The position numbers were made by a program, and so were the translations under genes. 64,000 bases of DNA, taken from contig JAEURR010000003.1 of NCBI GenBank assembly GCA_016788115.1, forward strand, positions 372,001 through 436,000, given 5' to 3'. Below, piece after piece: positions 4,458-11,980 of this stretch. Position 1 is the stretch's first letter, and each line of letters begins with the position of its first letter. The notes under the pieces were generated by a model, which saw nothing but the letters and a program-made list of their open reading frames with translations, did no database searches and had not been told where the DNA came from. This stretch comes from Chthonomonas sp. Its GTDB lineage: Bacteria > Armatimonadota > Fimbriimonadia > Fimbriimonadales > Fimbriimonadaceae.

Positions 4458-5300
4458 ATGAGGCTCTTCGACACCCACTGTCACCTCTACACCGAATCGG
4501 CCCTTCCGGATGCCGCTGCGGCTATCCATCAGGCGAGCGAGGCCGGCGTCGACCGGCTGACAGTCATCGGGATCGATCTGGAGACAACCCGGCAGGCCAT
4601 CGCGATGGCCGACCGGTTCCCGGGAGTCTACGCCACCGCCGGATGGCACCCAAACCACGCGGCCACATTCACTCCAGACGTATTTCGCGAGCTACAAGAG
4701 CTCGCGCGGCACCCCAAGGTTGTCGCGGTCGGCGAGTGCGGGCTCGACTTCCATTGGGACTACGCGACTCTGGAGCAACAGATTCACTGCTTGGACGTTC
4801 AGCTGGATTGGGCGGAGAGCAGCGGACTGCCGGTCGTGTTCCATTGCCGCGAAGCCGTTGATGCGCTGATTCAGCATCTTCAGAAACGGAACTGGACGCA
4901 TGCGTGCGTGTGGCACTGCTTCTCAGGCAACGAAGCTCAGGCCGAGGTGGTTCTACAAATGGGTAGCTACCTGGGTGTCGATGGGCCCGTGACCTTCCCG
5001 AAATCGGAGCTCACGCGAGTCGTCTTCGCGAAGGCACCACGAGATCGCGTTTTGTTAGAAACTGATGCGCCATACCTTGCGCCCGTGCCCATGCGCAGCA
5101 AGTCAAATCATCCCGCGTACTTGGTCCACGTGAACGACAAAATCGCCGAACTGTGGTCCGTCACTCCCGCCGAGTCGGCTAGAATCACTACGGCCAATGC
5201 GATGCGTTTCTATCGGCTGGAGGATGAGTCTGTGCGCCCTGATGGGGCTGCCACTGGCCAGCCGCATGGCCACAGCGCAGGCCCCGATCACGACCGGTGA
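4458..5300 (+). CDS. tatD: TatD-family metal-dependent hydrolase (DNase)
   Basis: A 280-residue TIM-barrel amidohydrolase-like enzyme of the TatD family, whose members are 3'-5' DNases or RNases in DNA repair and RNA quality control. Visible metal ligands are D5, H7 and H9 in FDTHCHL, E93 in GECGLDF, H129 in FHCREA, H153 in WHCFSG and D203 in ETDAPYL. The first ~255 residues match the usual family length; the last ~25 residues are extra, polar and low in complexity. They arise because the frame runs about 100 bp into the start of the next gene, so they may be neutral. The gene is divergent from serS. Confidence 0.95.
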   Translation: MRLFDTHCHLYTESALPDAAAAIHQASEAGVDRLTVIGIDLETTRQAIAMADRFPGVYATAGWHPNHAATFTPDVFRELQELARHPKVVAVGECGLDFHWDYATLEQQIHCLDVQLDWAESSGLPVVFHCREAVDALIQHLQKRNWTHACVWHCFSGNEAQAEVVLQMGSYLGVDGPVTFPKSELTRVVFAKAPRDRVLLETDAPYLAPVPMRSKSNHPAYLVHVNDKIAELWSVTPAESARITTANAMRFYRLEDESVRPDGAATGQPHGHSAGPDHDR

Positions 5301-6876: not shown

Positions 6877-7538
6877 CCCCTGGCGAGCGTGGTTTTCTGG
6901 CGTACGCCTTTGACCTGGAAGTCGGCAAGCGCCATGCCTGTGTTTATGTGCCGCCCTCGTGGGATGGCAAGAGTCCGATGGCGACGATCTTGTACTTGCA
7001 CGGTCGGGGGGAATCGGGGACCGATGGCTTGCGGCAGATCCTGATTGGGCTTCCGTCGGCGATCATCGATGCGAGCCACCGCTGGCCGTTCATGGTCATT
7101 GCACCGCAGAAGCCGGATATGGACGCGGAGTGGTTTGACCAACGCGGGTGGCTGGACATGATGCTGGAATGGGCCGAGAAGCGCTGGCCGAGCGATCCCC
7201 ACCGTCGGTACTTGACCGGACTGAGCCAAGGTGGACGCGGCACCTTTAGGCTGGTGAAGTCGCTGCGCTGGCACTTCGCCGCCGCTGCCCCTATTTGCGG
7301 CTGGGTCGATCCTGCCGAAGCAGCCCAGAACTTCCGCTCGATTCCAATCTGGGCGTTCCACGGCATGAAAGACACGGTGGTTCCGCCTGAAGGGAGCATC
7401 CACGCAATCGAGGCGATCAAGGCGGCAGGCGGCGATGCGAAGATCACACTCTATCCGGAGCTGACCCACAACTCGTGGGATGAGGCGTACCGCAAAAGCG
7501 AACTGGCCGAATGGCTCCTCACTCACTCGCTGGACTAG
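6873..7538 (+). CDS. Alpha/beta-hydrolase, esterase/dienelactone-hydrolase-like
   Basis: 221 residues with the alpha/beta-hydrolase pattern: oxyanion segment LYLHGRGESG, nucleophile elbow GLSQGG, acid in FHGMKDTVVP and catalytic histidine in ELTHNSW. The sequence resembles the carboxylesterase/PHB-depolymerase-like group; the substrate cannot be read from sequence. No signal peptide, so it is probably cytoplasmic. It starts inside the stop of the DUF4127 gene (ATGA at 6873-6876) and its last 20 bp overlap the end of the convergent membrane-protein gene. Co-expression with DUF4127 suggests a shared pathway on some ester or amide, which is only inference. Confidence 0.85.
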   Translation: MTPGERGFLAYAFDLEVGKRHACVYVPPSWDGKSPMATILYLHGRGESGTDGLRQILIGLPSAIIDASHRWPFMVIAPQKPDMDAEWFDQRGWLDMMLEWAEKRWPSDPHRRYLTGLSQGGRGTFRLVKSLRWHFAAAAPICGWVDPAEAAQNFRSIPIWAFHGMKDTVVPPEGSIHAIEAIKAAGGDAKITLYPELTHNSWDEAYRKSELAEWLLTHSLD

Positions 7539-8433
7539 CGACGGGCGGAGCGACCGGGTTCTTCTTCGCCTTCGCTGCCGAGTAGATCCCGAACGCCGCA
7601 AGCGACACAGCGAGGATCGTCGCCAGCGCCATCCCGAGCTTTTCTTCCTGGTTCATCGCGAACTGCTTCCAGTTCACGAGTAGCACTGTCAGGCCGATGG
7701 GCAGCAGTGCTGGCAACGCCGCCAAGCTGATGGGGCCAATGCTTAGGCCACTCCCGAATAGCACCAACGCCAAGTACAGCACGAGCACGGGCATGATCCA
7801 CAGTAGCGTCTCGCGAGTGCGCATTTGGAACTTGAAGAGCGCGACGAAGAACATCGCCAGGAAAATGAAATCTGCGGGGCCGATGTACGTGCCCGGGCCA
7901 ACCGCCATCCCCCCGGTACCGCTGGGCAGCACGGTCGGAACCTTGGCCGCGACTGCGTGGAACACTTCCGGCGCGTTTTCGATGATCTGGCGCGGAAGGG
8001 TCGTCGGCTTGAAGATGATGTACATGTCGAAGCCAGCGAGAAAAACGGCCATCGGGGGAATCAGGTTCTTGTCCTTGACGACCGCGGTGATCAATGAGCC
8101 AAGGCCGACGCACCAGATAAGCAGACCAGTCTGGGCGCTCGCATCGAAAAGTGCGGGCAAGAAACCCTCTTTGCCGCTCGATCGCATGAGGAAGTACGAG
8201 ACCGCGTGGAGCGCGACCCCGCTCGCCAAAAACGTGGCAGACAGCTTGGCCGACCAAACGTGCGCTGCCGCGGCGTAAAGCGCCAAGATCGGCACCGCGA
8301 CGAAGACAATTGTGAGCACAATCGAGAGCGCGCTCGCGATACCCACGGGGACCACCATGGACGGCAGGATCAACCGAATCAGGAATAGCAGTAGCACGAT
8401 GACGAGGAATCGCTGGAGCGCGTTTGGCTTCAT
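7519..8433 (-). CDS. Presenilin/signal-peptide-peptidase-like intramembrane aspartyl protease candidate
   Basis: 304 residues and about nine hydrophobic segments. Three motifs of GxGD intramembrane aspartyl proteases occur in the right order: an aspartate in FLAGFDMYIIF (D136, where presenilins have YD), GPADFIFLAMF (D188, where presenilins have GxGDFIF), and ALPALLPIG (PAL at 241-243). The gaps (52 and 53 residues) look similar to those in archaeal presenilin homologues as I remember them. The stretch between the aspartates also ends with a KVPTVLP segment reminiscent of the family. The first glycine pattern is G-P-A-D rather than G-x-G-D, so activity is uncertain. The gene is last in an operon after a GT4 glycosyltransferase (ATGA overlap at 8430-8433). 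The alternative is an uncharacterised membrane protein without protease activity. Confidence 0.65.
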   Translation of the reverse strand: MKPNALQRFLVIVLLLFLIRLILPSMVVPVGIASALSIVLTIVFVAVPILALYAAAAHVWSAKLSATFLASGVALHAVSYFLMRSSGKEGFLPALFDASAQTGLLIWCVGLGSLITAVVKDKNLIPPMAVFLAGFDMYIIFKPTTLPRQIIENAPEVFHAVAAKVPTVLPSGTGGMAVGPGTYIGPADFIFLAMFFVALFKFQMRTRETLLWIMPVLVLYLALVLFGSGLSIGPISLAALPALLPIGLTVLLVNWKQFAMNQEEKLGMALATILAVSLAAFGIYSAAKAKKNPVAPPVASPASE

Positions 8434-9623
8434 CGCAGCACCGCCTGAGGAGTTGGAGCTGCGCTGGGGTCCATCGCGGCGCGGTAAACGCTCACGACCG
8501 CACTCACCATGTCGTCGCGCGTGAAGGACCGGACCGAGTGGCGCGCGTGCATGCTCATGGTTTCGAATCGATCTTCGTCACGCAACAGCGACACGACTTC
8601 GTGGGCGAACTGGGCCGGATCGTTGCGGACGACAACCCCGTTCTTCCCTTCGATCACTGCGGCACTTGCGCCACCGCCCTGGACCACAATCGCGGGGAGC
8701 CCGTGGGTCATCGCTTCCGCGATGACTAGCCCCTGCGTCTCGGTCATGCTCGCGAAGACGAAGAGGTCGGCGGCGGCATAGAAGAGATCTACTTCGTTGC
8801 GTGGCCGGAATCCCACAAACTTCACACGGTCGCCGATCCCCAGTTCTTGCGCCAGGCTCATGCACTCGACCCGCGAAGGACCATCGCCCACCAGCATAAA
8901 TATCAAGTTCGGATCCTCGCGGAAGGCGAGCGCAACCGCCTCGATCAGGGTGCTCATGTTCTTCTCACGGGCAATGCGCCCCACGTACAGCAACACCTTC
9001 TGATTCGGTCCAATCCCGAGTTGTGACCGCGCTTCGGCTCGGTCCACGGTTAGGGCCGAAACTGCACCCGTCGGAATGATCGTGACGGGCTTCTTCACCG
9101 AGTGCCGATCCAGCCACTTCTTGGCGGCGGCGCTGGGCGTGATGACCTGATCGACCTGGTTGTAATAGAAATTCGTATGCTTAGCGAGTTTGTAGCGCAA
9201 GTACCGTTTGGGGACGAACGGGATGTAGTGCGCGTACTTGTCGTACAGCGTGTGGTAAGTGCTGACCACGGGGATATCGTGGGATTGCCCCCACCGCAAC
9301 CCGACAAACCCGATGGTGAACGGCGTGTGGGTGTGGATGACGTCGAAATGCTGCCGTCGGAATCGGCCAATCATGGGATAGAACGGCGGCAACGCGAGCG
9401 GGTACCCCTTCGTCCAGGGGGTTTCGGTGGCGTAGAAGCGAATGACGTTTGGGTCGTCGTCCCGGTGACCGCGGTGGGCGGCAGTGAACAAATGCACAGA
9501 ATGCCCTCGACTCCGCAAACCGGAGATGAGGGCATCGATCGAAACCGAGACGCCATTCAGGATCGGCAACGCGCTATCCGAGAAGATGGCGATCTTGAGC
9601 GGCCGATCCTGGGGGTTGGTCAT
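8430..9623 (-). CDS. Glycosyltransferase family 4 (GT-B fold)
   Basis: 397 residues. The N-terminal Rossmann half has FSDSALPILNGVSVS and DVIHTHTPFTIG. The C-terminal half has VGRIAREKN, VGDGPSR and the nucleotide-sugar-binding SMTETQGLVIAEAM box (E-x7-E type). These are hallmarks of GT4 enzymes such as mannosyl- or glucosyltransferases acting on diacylglycerol or phosphatidylinositol. The enzyme likely works at the cytoplasmic face of the inner membrane and retains the sugar configuration; donor and acceptor are not determinable. It overlaps by 4 nt both the upstream HTH gene (9620-9623) and the downstream membrane-protein gene (8430-8433), which makes a tight three-gene operon. Confidence 0.9.
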   Translation of the reverse strand: MTNPQDRPLKIAIFSDSALPILNGVSVSIDALISGLRSRGHSVHLFTAAHRGHRDDDPNVIRFYATETPWTKGYPLALPPFYPMIGRFRRQHFDVIHTHTPFTIGFVGLRWGQSHDIPVVSTYHTLYDKYAHYIPFVPKRYLRYKLAKHTNFYYNQVDQVITPSAAAKKWLDRHSVKKPVTIIPTGAVSALTVDRAEARSQLGIGPNQKVLLYVGRIAREKNMSTLIEAVALAFREDPNLIFMLVGDGPSRVECMSLAQELGIGDRVKFVGFRPRNEVDLFYAAADLFVFASMTETQGLVIAEAMTHGLPAIVVQGGGASAAVIEGKNGVVVRNDPAQFAHEVVSLLRDEDRFETMSMHARHSVRSFTRDDMVSAVVSVYRAAMDPSAAPTPQAVLR

Positions 9624-10156
9624 TCTTCGGGGTGGCGTCCGTGGGTTTCCACGAACTTTACCACGCCGCTAAGGCGGAACCGGCGCTGACCGCCCTTGGT
9701 TCGGTGGTGCGACAGCCAGTTTCGATTGGTGTACCGTCGCACGGTGGCCGGGCAAACACCCAGCAATCGGCTGACTTCTTCGAGGGTGAGCTCGGGGTCG
9801 AGCAATCGTCGAATGAGCTCTTCGCGGCTCTCCTTAAACTCGCCTCGGTAGTAGTTGGCGGTTACGGAGTCGTCAAAGAAGCTTCCAAGGAAGTGGATAT
9901 TGCGCGGCAGGACCTGCCAGATCTCCTCAAGCTCCGCGTTGATCAGGGTCTCTCCAACCTTTTCGACCTTCGCGCGCCGGGGACGCGGGGCGCTCAGTTG
10001 GCGCTTGCGAAAACGTACCTTTCCATCAACGGTGTTCGAAGGTGTTGAATCTACGGCCGGTACGACCGCGACCTTGCTGCCATCAACCTTACTGTCCGAG
10101 AATGCACTCTCAATATAAGCAAACGGGTCAAACTCTTTCATTTTCTTCTGCGGCAT
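9620..10156 (-). CDS. Helix-turn-helix (MerR/BldC-like) DNA-binding protein
   Basis: 178 residues. The C-terminal ~50 residues form a winged-helix domain of the MerR/excisionase type: LTLEEVSRLLGVCPATVRRY followed by a wing segment TKGGQRRFRLSGV. The N-terminal ~125 residues are basic and low in known motifs, with SREELIRRLLDPE just ahead of the HTH. It probably controls its own operon (with the GT4 and presenilin-like genes). An inverted repeat sits directly upstream. The start may be the ATG at 10156 or the one at 10141 (MKEF). The family assignment is confident; the regulon is not known. Confidence 0.75.
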   Translation of the reverse strand: MPQKKMKEFDPFAYIESAFSDSKVDGSKVAVVPAVDSTPSNTVDGKVRFRKRQLSAPRPRRAKVEKVGETLINAELEEIWQVLPRNIHFLGSFFDDSVTANYYRGEFKESREELIRRLLDPELTLEEVSRLLGVCPATVRRYTNRNWLSHHRTKGGQRRFRLSGVVKFVETHGRHPEE

Positions 10157-10161
10157 GCTCC

Positions 10162-10228
10162 AATCATACGAAAGAGCATGATTTATGGTTATACCTTATA
10201 CTAGAATTCGTATTCCTTCCTTTAGCAA
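10162..10228 (-). promoter_or_regulatory. Promoter region and inverted repeat before the HTH operon
   Basis: This AT-rich patch differs from its GC-rich surroundings. On the minus strand it holds TTGCTA (10223-10228), TAGTAT (10198-10203) and TATAAC (10188-10193), which can serve as -35 and -10 boxes. Between these and the start codon lies the inverted repeat AATCAT-N10-ATGATT (10162-10183). The position just downstream of the -10 would suit an autorepressor site. Confidence 0.4.
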
Positions 10229-10238
10229 CAATTTAGAC

Positions 10239-11261
10239 TCAGGTTCGAATCAACATGGAATCGCCAAAACTTAGAAACCGGTAATTGTGCTGAAGAGCGT
10301 GCTCGTAGCTACTCCGCCAGAGCTCCACTCCCGTCAGCGCGCTGACCATGAACAGCATGCTTGTGCGCGGCATATGGAAGTTGGTGAGCAGACATTCGAC
10401 AACCTGAAACGGGTAGCCGGGCGTGATGAAGATCTCGGTGACTCGCTCGCCTTGATCAACCTTGCGCCGCCCCGTAGCGAATGACTCCAGGGTGCGACAT
10501 GCTGTGGTGCCAACCGCAATAATCCTACCCTTGCAACCATTGATTGTTGCCTGCGCCTCTGTTGAAATCGCACACCGTTCTCCGTGCATCTTGTGGTCGC
10601 TGATTCGTTCGGCTTGGACAGGTCGGAACGTATCGATCCCAACGTCGAGCGTCACGCGGGCAGTTTGAATCCCCTTGGACTCCAGTGTCGCGATCAGCTC
10701 CTGCGTGAAGTGGAGGCCCGCGGTGGGCGCGGCCGAACTCCCGGGCGTGTGGGAGTACACGGTCTGGTACCGCTCTGAGTTCTCCAACCGTTCATGGATG
10801 TACGGCGGCAGGGGGACGGCCCCCACCCGCTCGATATGTTCTTCGCTGTCGGATACCAGAAACCGGATGCGCTTGCGACCATCGCCGAGGTCCGACTCGA
10901 CCAAGCACGGCAGCACGTCTTCAAAGAGAACCTCCGAGCCTTCGCGCAACCGCTTGCCTGGCCGCATGAGCGCAACGTAGGTATTGGCTTGGGCGAGTCT
11001 GCCCAGCAGCAGGGCCTCGACGACCCCTCCGGTCGGCTTGCGGCCGATGAGCCGCTTGGCGGTCACGCGCGTATCGTTGAAGACGAGAAGATCCCCCGGT
11101 TCAAGCAGGTTCGGAAGGTCTCGAAAGACCCGATCCGAGATAGCGGCGGTCGGGACATCAACACAAAGCAGCTTGCTGGCGTCGCGCTGTTCCAGCGGTA
11201 CCTGGGCAATTCGGTCTTCCGGCAACTCGAAGTCGAAGTCGGAGAGCGTCAGCATAGCCAA
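10239..11261 (-). CDS. queA: S-adenosylmethionine:tRNA ribosyltransferase-isomerase
   Basis: 340 residues, normal for QueA, which transfers the ribosyl part of SAM to 7-aminomethyl-7-deazaguanine in tRNA and so forms epoxyqueuosine at the wobble position of GUN anticodons. Recognisable segments are FELPEDRIAQVPLEQRDASKL at the start, VFNDTRVTAKRL, SAAPTAGLHFT and TNFHMPRTSMLFMV near the end. The tRNA-Thr (GGU) in this window is not a queuosine target, but the tRNA-Tyr (GUA) is. The start overlaps the end of the HAD gene by 13 nt, so they are probably co-transcribed. Confidence 0.96.
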   Translation of the reverse strand: MAMLTLSDFDFELPEDRIAQVPLEQRDASKLLCVDVPTAAISDRVFRDLPNLLEPGDLLVFNDTRVTAKRLIGRKPTGGVVEALLLGRLAQANTYVALMRPGKRLREGSEVLFEDVLPCLVESDLGDGRKRIRFLVSDSEEHIERVGAVPLPPYIHERLENSERYQTVYSHTPGSSAAPTAGLHFTQELIATLESKGIQTARVTLDVGIDTFRPVQAERISDHKMHGERCAISTEAQATINGCKGRIIAVGTTACRTLESFATGRRKVDQGERVTEIFITPGYPFQVVECLLTNFHMPRTSMLFMVSALTGVELWRSSYEHALQHNYRFLSFGDSMLIRT

Positions 11262-11980
11262 CCCCCGAGTTCACACAAGTCATGTAGGAACGGCGGCGTG
11301 CTCTCGGTGCGGCCACGGTCCAGGTGAAGCGTCATCCAACCTGCGTCGCGTGCGCCTTGGAAGTCGTCGATCAAGTGATCCCCGATGTGGAGCATCTCGC
11401 CCGGCTCGGACCCCACCGCCTTGCGCGCGATCTCGAAGAGCTCGAGCGACGGCTTCTCGACGCCATAACGCAAGGACGGCACGATGACTTCGAAATACGG
11501 AGACAGTCCGTGGACTTGCAGGAAGCGCGTCAGCGACAGGTCCCAGTTGCTGAGCACAATCATCCGGTAGCCGCGATCTCGCAGCTCGTCAAGACAAGGG
11601 ACGACATCGGGGAACTTCTGGAAGAGGTCTCCCTCCGGGTCATAGATCCGCCGCCACGCGATCTCGGACACGCGCTGCGCGACGGCCTCGCCCATCCCGA
11701 ACCCGGCCAGCCAATTCCGTCCGAGCACTTCCCAAAACGCATCGCACTGCGCGAGGTCGCCGGTGAGGTTCAGCTCTTGGAAATGAGCCCACCGCTTCCC
11801 CAAGAGGGACCGGTACGCGTCGTATGCGCCAACGGGAAGGCTCTCGCCCGCTTCGGTGAGTGCATCGACCGCCACTTGGGATGGGTCCCAGCGGGTGCGC
11901 AGGAGCGTCTCGGCGCAGTCGAAGCTCACGACTTTCGGCTGCCAAGGGGGCGCAGAAAGCCTGTCAAGGGGCATACTCAT
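11249..11980 (-). CDS. HAD-superfamily hydrolase, HDHD3-like
   Basis: 243 residues with a HAD fold: motif I SFDCAETLL (nucleophile D21), cap region to about residue 125, motif II VLSNWD, motif III lysine in VEKPSLELF and motif IV HIGDHLIDDFQGA. The residue two after the nucleophile, normally a second aspartate acting as general acid/base in HAD phosphatases, is alanine (A23). The HDHD3-like branch also deviates at this site, so phosphatase activity is uncertain and the substrate unknown. It probably heads a transcript with queA. Confidence 0.8.
   Translation of the reverse strand: MSMPLDRLSAPPWQPKVVSFDCAETLLRTRWDPSQVAVDALTEAGESLPVGAYDAYRSLLGKRWAHFQELNLTGDLAQCDAFWEVLGRNWLAGFGMGEAVAQRVSEIAWRRIYDPEGDLFQKFPDVVPCLDELRDRGYRMIVLSNWDLSLTRFLQVHGLSPYFEVIVPSLRYGVEKPSLELFEIARKAVGSEPGEMLHIGDHLIDDFQGARDAGWMTLHLDRGRTESTPPFLHDLCELGGWLC

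Follow-up and report, generated by a model that had tools for sequence, protein, structure and literature searches.

A candidate intramembrane aspartyl protease of the presenilin/SPP superfamily in Armatimonadota

Descriptions of presenilin-type proteases come from eukaryotes and archaea. The window analysed here, a stretch of 64,000 nucleotides from Chthonomonas sp., contains an open reading frame of 304 codons that runs on the minus strand from 8433 to 7519; in the same frame, the plus strand at 7519-8433 is interrupted by stops throughout. A sequence-only reading proposed that this gene encodes a presenilin-like intramembrane aspartyl protease and pointed out that one of its motifs, GPAD, deviates from the expected pattern, so that the protein might be inactive. 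The locus therefore raises the question of whether the protein belongs to the presenilin superfamily, whether it could cleave proteins within the membrane and which role it could play in its host. The three motifs named in that reading, D136 (GFDMYIIF), D188 (GPADFIF) and P241-A-L243 (ALPALLPIG), were all found at the positions claimed, on the minus strand. The features of the gene are as follows.

7519..8433, minus strand: candidate intramembrane aspartyl protease with a presenilin/SPP fold, 304 amino acids, nine predicted helices (from translation, model and homologues)
8026..8028, minus strand: codon of D136, candidate first catalytic aspartate, in helix 122-141 (Asp in 128/128 homologues)
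7882..7947, minus strand: residues 163-184, predicted beta hairpin directly ahead of the second Asp motif (model DSSP, strands 163-170 and 176-184)
7870..7881, minus strand: G185-P-A-D188, candidate second catalytic motif (GxGD/GxAD), which opens helix 186-201 (conservation; aligned with GLGD of presenilin-1)
7705..7713, minus strand: P241-A-L243, PAL motif opening helix 243-253 (conservation; aligned with PAL of presenilin-1)
7642..7674, minus strand: N254 to E264, conserved turn from the PAL helix to an extra C-terminal helix, 262-289 (N in 120/128, E in 123/128)

Distribution and conservation of the motifs

Bacterial members of the superfamily had been noted as rarely described. Among the relatives of the window protein, the gene is not rare but phylum-wide. 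A first search among relatives was positive in 93 of 101 genomes, and a profile search of an even sample of Armatimonadota detected homologues in 143 of 151 genomes, belonging to 98 of 100 genera. Most genomes carry one copy and a few carry two; at one locus (G145:C1:5630872-5632638, L112), the protease gene occurs as two adjacent copies on one strand. No homologue was found on the plasmids and viral contigs searched. A scan of a public genome set with a single GPAD/GPGD-type pattern yielded 17 loci, all from Armatimonadota and including Fimbriimonadaceae, MAGs labelled Chthonomonas and Capsulimonadaceae; homologues may exist in other phyla as well.

The alignment used here comprises 128 homologues, drawn from some 40 families of Armatimonadota; an earlier version comprised 70. 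D136, G185 and D188 are invariant in both sets and are the three columns of lowest entropy among the 128 homologues, D136 and D188 being the only columns with an Asp majority; such conservation far exceeds what chance would give. None of the 128 aligned homologues lacks either aspartate, homologues without both being a refuting case named in the sequence-only reading. The PAL motif is also well kept (P241 in 122/128, A in 92/128, L243 in 118/128), and the next most conserved residues are G112 (127/128), E264 (123/128), N254 (120/128) and F191 (120/128). As the window protein shares only about 20-30% identity with its far homologues, this retention of the Asp and Gly residues of the motifs is selective. 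The spacing of 52 and 53 residues between the three motifs, which had been put forward as nearly identical to that of archaeal homologues, is correct for the window protein, but the family as a whole ranges from 41 to 61 and from 43 to 54 residues.

Two positions next to the aspartates deserve attention. At position 187, only Ala (66 of the 128 homologues) and Gly (62) occur; the window protein has Ala, and the motif of distant members reads GLGD or GFGD. GPAD can therefore be regarded as a natural variant, with GxGD as the other form of the same motif. Position 135, mostly Val, Phe, Ile or Ala, is Tyr in only 3 of the 128 homologues, so that the YD typical of presenilin and SPP is absent from the family.

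Predicted fold and family assignment

The AlphaFold2 model of the window protein, built with the family alignment, reached a pLDDT of 95.1 and a pTM of 0.90. It consists of helices 5-25, 30-56, 62-85, 91-117 and 122-141 (the latter carrying D136), two short helices within 146-161, the beta hairpin 163-184, then helices 186-201 (carrying D188), 206-226, 243-253 (PAL) and 262-289. Both aspartates were thus found in predicted membrane helices, D136 five residues before the end of its helix, near the loop, and D188 two residues after the start of its own, which would bring the two close to the same membrane face. The modelled hairpin runs straight into G185, where presenilin and PSH have their substrate-pairing beta2 strand ahead of GxGD (A213-G217 in PSH, R377-L381 in presenilin-1, PS1; PMC9282858), and the short helices that follow the D136 helix are located where TM6a forms in presenilin and PSH (PMC9282858).

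The comparison with presenilin and PSH structures, which the sequence-only reading had suggested as a check, returned presenilin-1, SPPL2a and archaeal PSH as the best relatives. With Foldseek, the best matches of the window model were presenilin-1 chains, with weak E-values (best 0.047). With VIA-align, ranks 1-14 were all PS1, SPPL2a or PSH (Z 13.4 to 9.0), the first unrelated chain having a Z of 6.1; the best match was 6idf (Z 13.4, rmsd 3.0 over 188 residues). A second AlphaFold2 model, of a distant member with a GFGD motif (L058, pLDDT 88.6), gave presenilin, SPPL2a or PSH at all of ranks 1-22 (Z 15.2 to 10.1), followed by a row at 4.8, and its best match was 8x53 (Z 15.2, rmsd 3.3 over 187 residues). 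In these comparisons, the last aligned residues are 258 on 450 for the window protein and 221 on 452 for the distant member, implying that, if no gap lies between, the modelled P241 and P202 would respectively fall on P433 of PS1, whose PAL motif corresponds to residues 433-435.

As the training of AlphaFold2 included presenilin structures, this fold match is not fully independent, and a link to presenilin-1 at the level of sequence profiles therefore matters. As a single sequence, the window protein has no meaningful match in Pfam, NCBIfam or the PDB; a match to DUF1206 (E 0.094) was dismissed as chance. A first profile of 68 sequences, in which close relatives were abundant, did not detect presenilin, whereas broader ones found presenilin-1. 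Indeed, a profile of 74 homologues searched against the whole PDB (E up to 10) had a single match, presenilin-1 (2kr6, E 2.5e-4), in which D188 is aligned with the Asp of GLGDFIF and PAL with PAL. With a smaller profile, presenilin-1 was again the only match (E 0.047), and the same motifs were aligned. The matched entry is the C-terminal fragment of PS1; full-length PS1 chains were not matched. Together, the invariant aspartates, the modelled fold and this profile match argue for the presenilin-like assignment first proposed from the motifs.

The curated families nevertheless keep their distance. PF06550 (archaeal SPP/PSH) had no match in 21 genomes of the phylum, two archaeal controls being positive. 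The best E-values were 0.042 for PF01080 (Presenilin), matched in 5 members, and 0.0015 for PF04258 (Peptidase_A22B), matched in 2, all below the curated cut-offs, and the window protein itself matched none of the three profiles at E up to 10. None of the members examined scored above the Pfam threshold for any of Presenilin, SPP and Peptidase_A22B. As both the YD signature and the curated profile scores fail, the family is kept apart from presenilin, SPP and PSH. On the evidence of profiles and models, it forms a new family within the presenilin/SPP superfamily, shortened and with the same predicted fold and presumably the same chemistry.

The comparison with known members shows in what respect this family would be shortened. 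Like archaeal PSH/MCMJR1 (MEROPS A22; 4HYG, 4Y6K), it has two aspartates on adjacent predicted helices, a Gly three residues before the second one, a predicted beta strand before the latter, a PAL motif and a prokaryotic host; the fold match to PSH has a Z of 9.0 for the window protein and 12.6 for the distant member. PSH is active without accessory components. Unlike it, the Armatimonadota protein lacks YD (135 being Val, Phe, Ile or Ala), is not matched by PF06550 and is predicted to have fewer helices before the first Asp and an extra helix after the PAL helix. Human presenilin-1, the catalytic subunit of gamma-secretase, whose partner subunits are nicastrin, APH-1 and PEN-2, provides the best fold matches and the sole PDB match of the family profile, but the Armatimonadota protein lacks the large loop with the autocleavage site and probably has the opposite membrane orientation. 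With respect to presenilin, the model suggests that about two helices are missing between TM1 and the helix carrying the first Asp (three helices precede the latter from residue 30, versus five in presenilin, an estimate that also uses the aligned ranges), and that an N-terminal helix and a helix past the PAL helix are probably additional. Human SPPL2a (9k92/9k93) shares the fold (Z 11.7-12.1 for the window protein, 13.8-13.9 for the distant member), and the catalytic loop would be oriented as in SPP/SPPL. The family differs from SPP/SPPL by the lack of YD, by Ala or Gly preceding the second Asp and by an N-terminus that would be inside, owing to an additional helix at that end; a protease-associated ectodomain was not seen.

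Activity, orientation and likely substrates

The protein is most likely an active diaspartyl intramembrane protease, which would act on N-in segments and signal peptides and have a general role. D136 and D188, on neighbouring helices near the same membrane face, would activate a water molecule, the PAL helix would pack against them and the hairpin just before D188 would present a strand to the unwound helix of the substrate.

The deviation of GPAD, on which the suspicion of inactivity was based, is real, since residue 187 is Ala, but the alternation of Ala and Gly (66:62) eases the concern. The GPAD form is probably not a dead enzyme: both aspartates are kept in every member that carries Ala, the G219A substitution slows but does not abolish the activity of archaeal MCMJR1 (PMC2947513), and the archaeal aspartyl protease PibD, of family A24, works with a motif redefined as GxHyD (PMC4343526). 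By analogy, the Ala-187 version could show a slower turnover, or cleave with a different selectivity.

A presenilin fold could also have been borrowed for another purpose, the two aspartates serving a chaperone, scramblase or ion-leak role. Ala before D188 in the lineage of the window and the lack of any conserved substrate partner among the gene neighbours would fit such a non-proteolytic protein. It is nonetheless an unlikely explanation, as both aspartates and G185 are kept in 128/128 homologues and the PAL proline in 122/128 despite divergence down to about 20% identity, which is what catalysis predicts, and as the hairpin and the PAL helix are placed in the model as in the enzymes.

For an active protease, the substrates would depend on the orientation in the membrane. 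Loops 2-3, 4-5, 6-7 and 8-9 are rich in Lys and Arg (on average 1.9, 1.9, 2.9 and 3.2 Lys+Arg, respectively), loops 1-2 and 7-8 are poor (0.3 and 0.5), loop 3-4 averages 1.3 and such residues are sparse in the long catalytic loop. Furthermore, several homologues are fused to additional domains. Three second copies (L108:2424-5633, L109:3541-6783 and L110:897-5177) are part of frames of 1070-1427 amino acids in which both aspartates are kept. Upstream of the protease domain, these frames begin with what resembles a signal peptide, followed by a carboxypeptidase-regulatory-like domain, a single helix and a linker rich in Arg; downstream, they encode about 500 amino acids that look, by eye, hydrolase- and sugar-binding-like. 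Another homologue (L059:3965-5116) carries a C-terminal PDZ domain, reminiscent of site-2 proteases. Two others (L124:2525-4117 and L125:2895-4421) extend about 170-200 amino acids past the last helix, with no Pfam match. The loop charges and the domain fusions suggest a protein with its N-terminus inside and its C-terminus and catalytic loop outside, an orientation that would be that of SPP rather than that of presenilin.

In SPP/SPPL, the catalytic centre is oriented opposite to that of presenilin, and these enzymes accept N-in (type II) segments (PMC7366577). With its N-terminus inside and its catalytic loop and C-terminus outside, as in SPP/SPPL, the Armatimonadota protein would act on single membrane segments with a cytoplasmic N-terminus, likely substrates being type II proteins, signal peptides and the anchor stubs left by other proteases. 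We consider it highly probable that the family is a divergent, shortened member of the presenilin/SPP superfamily, i.e. a diaspartyl protease with a membrane-internal active site, which would have the SPP orientation, N-in substrates and a housekeeping role.

Gene neighbourhood and cellular role

The gene had also been described as the last of a tight operon with a regulator and a GT4 enzyme. This arrangement is present in the window, upstream of the protease gene on the same strand, but its conservation is limited to Fimbriimonadaceae.

8430..9623, minus strand: GT4 glycosyltransferase, immediately upstream (Pfam PF13439/PF00534), with a 4-base ATGA overlap with the protease gene
9620..10156, minus strand: HTH_17/MerR-like regulator, upstream of the GT4 gene (Pfam PF12728), with a 4-base overlap with it
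10239..11261, minus strand: ORF further upstream, in conserved order, putatively QueA-like

The GT4 protein scores below the cut-off for glucosyl-diacylglycerol synthase, and about 120 residues with no named domain precede the helix-turn-helix of the regulator. Elsewhere in the window, the protease gene shares its last 20 bases with the 3' end of an esterase-like gene that converges on it (7519-7538). At 5197-5300, a TatD-like ORF and a DUF4127 ORF of the same strand have about 100 bases in common, so that the DUF4127 start is probably further in.

It could be proposed that the protease is a dedicated regulator tied to the GT4 enzyme or the HTH protein, for example in a glycolipid stress circuit. 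Indeed, besides the ATGA overlaps, the order HAD-QueA-HTH-GT4-protease (8430-11980 in the window, with the protease gene last) is kept in most of the Fimbriimonadaceae examined, and a start codon lies at most 30 bases from the GT4 stop in 26 of 29 adjacent pairs. However, some Fimbriimonadaceae (L090, L091, L095 and L101) have the protease gene away from GT4; in another family it lies next to pyrimidine genes and to genes for a DUF255 protein and an amidase; and in several other classes LeuRS lies downstream, nothing being shared elsewhere. We thus regard such a partnership as quite improbable, and it was rejected as a general role since the context is not conserved outside Fimbriimonadaceae. 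A near-universal gene with changing neighbours more likely has a general housekeeping role than one in the service of a single operon.

The distribution of other membrane proteases also bears on this role. SppA (PF01343) is nearly absent from genomes G000-G024 and from most other Fimbriimonadales, and is present in 11 of 14 control genomes and about half of Armatimonadota. Replacement of SppA by the protease was rejected, because many Armatimonadota outside Fimbriimonadales carry both. S2P-type M50 proteases were found in all 41 genomes searched and, together with the co-occurrence with SppA elsewhere, they leave no simple replacement story.

Prepilin peptidases are GxGD diaspartyl membrane proteases common in bacteria, and Peptidase_A24 was detected in 12 of the 14 control genomes. 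Although type IV prepilin peptidases and FlaK (MEROPS A24) likewise are prokaryotic enzymes of this type, it is hardly credible that the window protein is their relative and processes pilin-like leader peptides, as it has no Peptidase_A24 (PF01478) match, as the same genome carries a separate Peptidase_A24 gene (G000:C3:278989-279339) and as, unlike them, it combines a PAL motif with structural matches of the presenilin type (presenilin, SPPL2a and PSH); FlaK/A24 structures are absent from the fold match lists, an absence that carries no weight as evidence.

No Pfam or NCBIfam profile names the Armatimonadota protease family, and a literature search with partial coverage found no report of a bacterial presenilin or of presenilin in Armatimonadota. 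It seems reasonably likely that this family represents the first branch of the presenilin superfamily in bacteria, a near-universal core membrane protease with the SPP orientation and with PDZ or large extracytoplasmic fusions. Presenilin is the core of an enzyme linked to Alzheimer's disease, and its relative in Armatimonadota probably cuts proteins inside the bacterial membrane. If so, the family would supply compact one-chain enzymes for structural studies and work on inhibitors, as well as a pared-down natural model of the superfamily, and the reduced helix number of a bacterial branch spanning the phylum would reveal which parts of presenilin are essential. Such a branch would also bear on the place of origin of the superfamily. 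Lastly, it would raise the question of how signal peptides and membrane stubs are cleared in Fimbriimonadales, which are almost entirely devoid of SppA.
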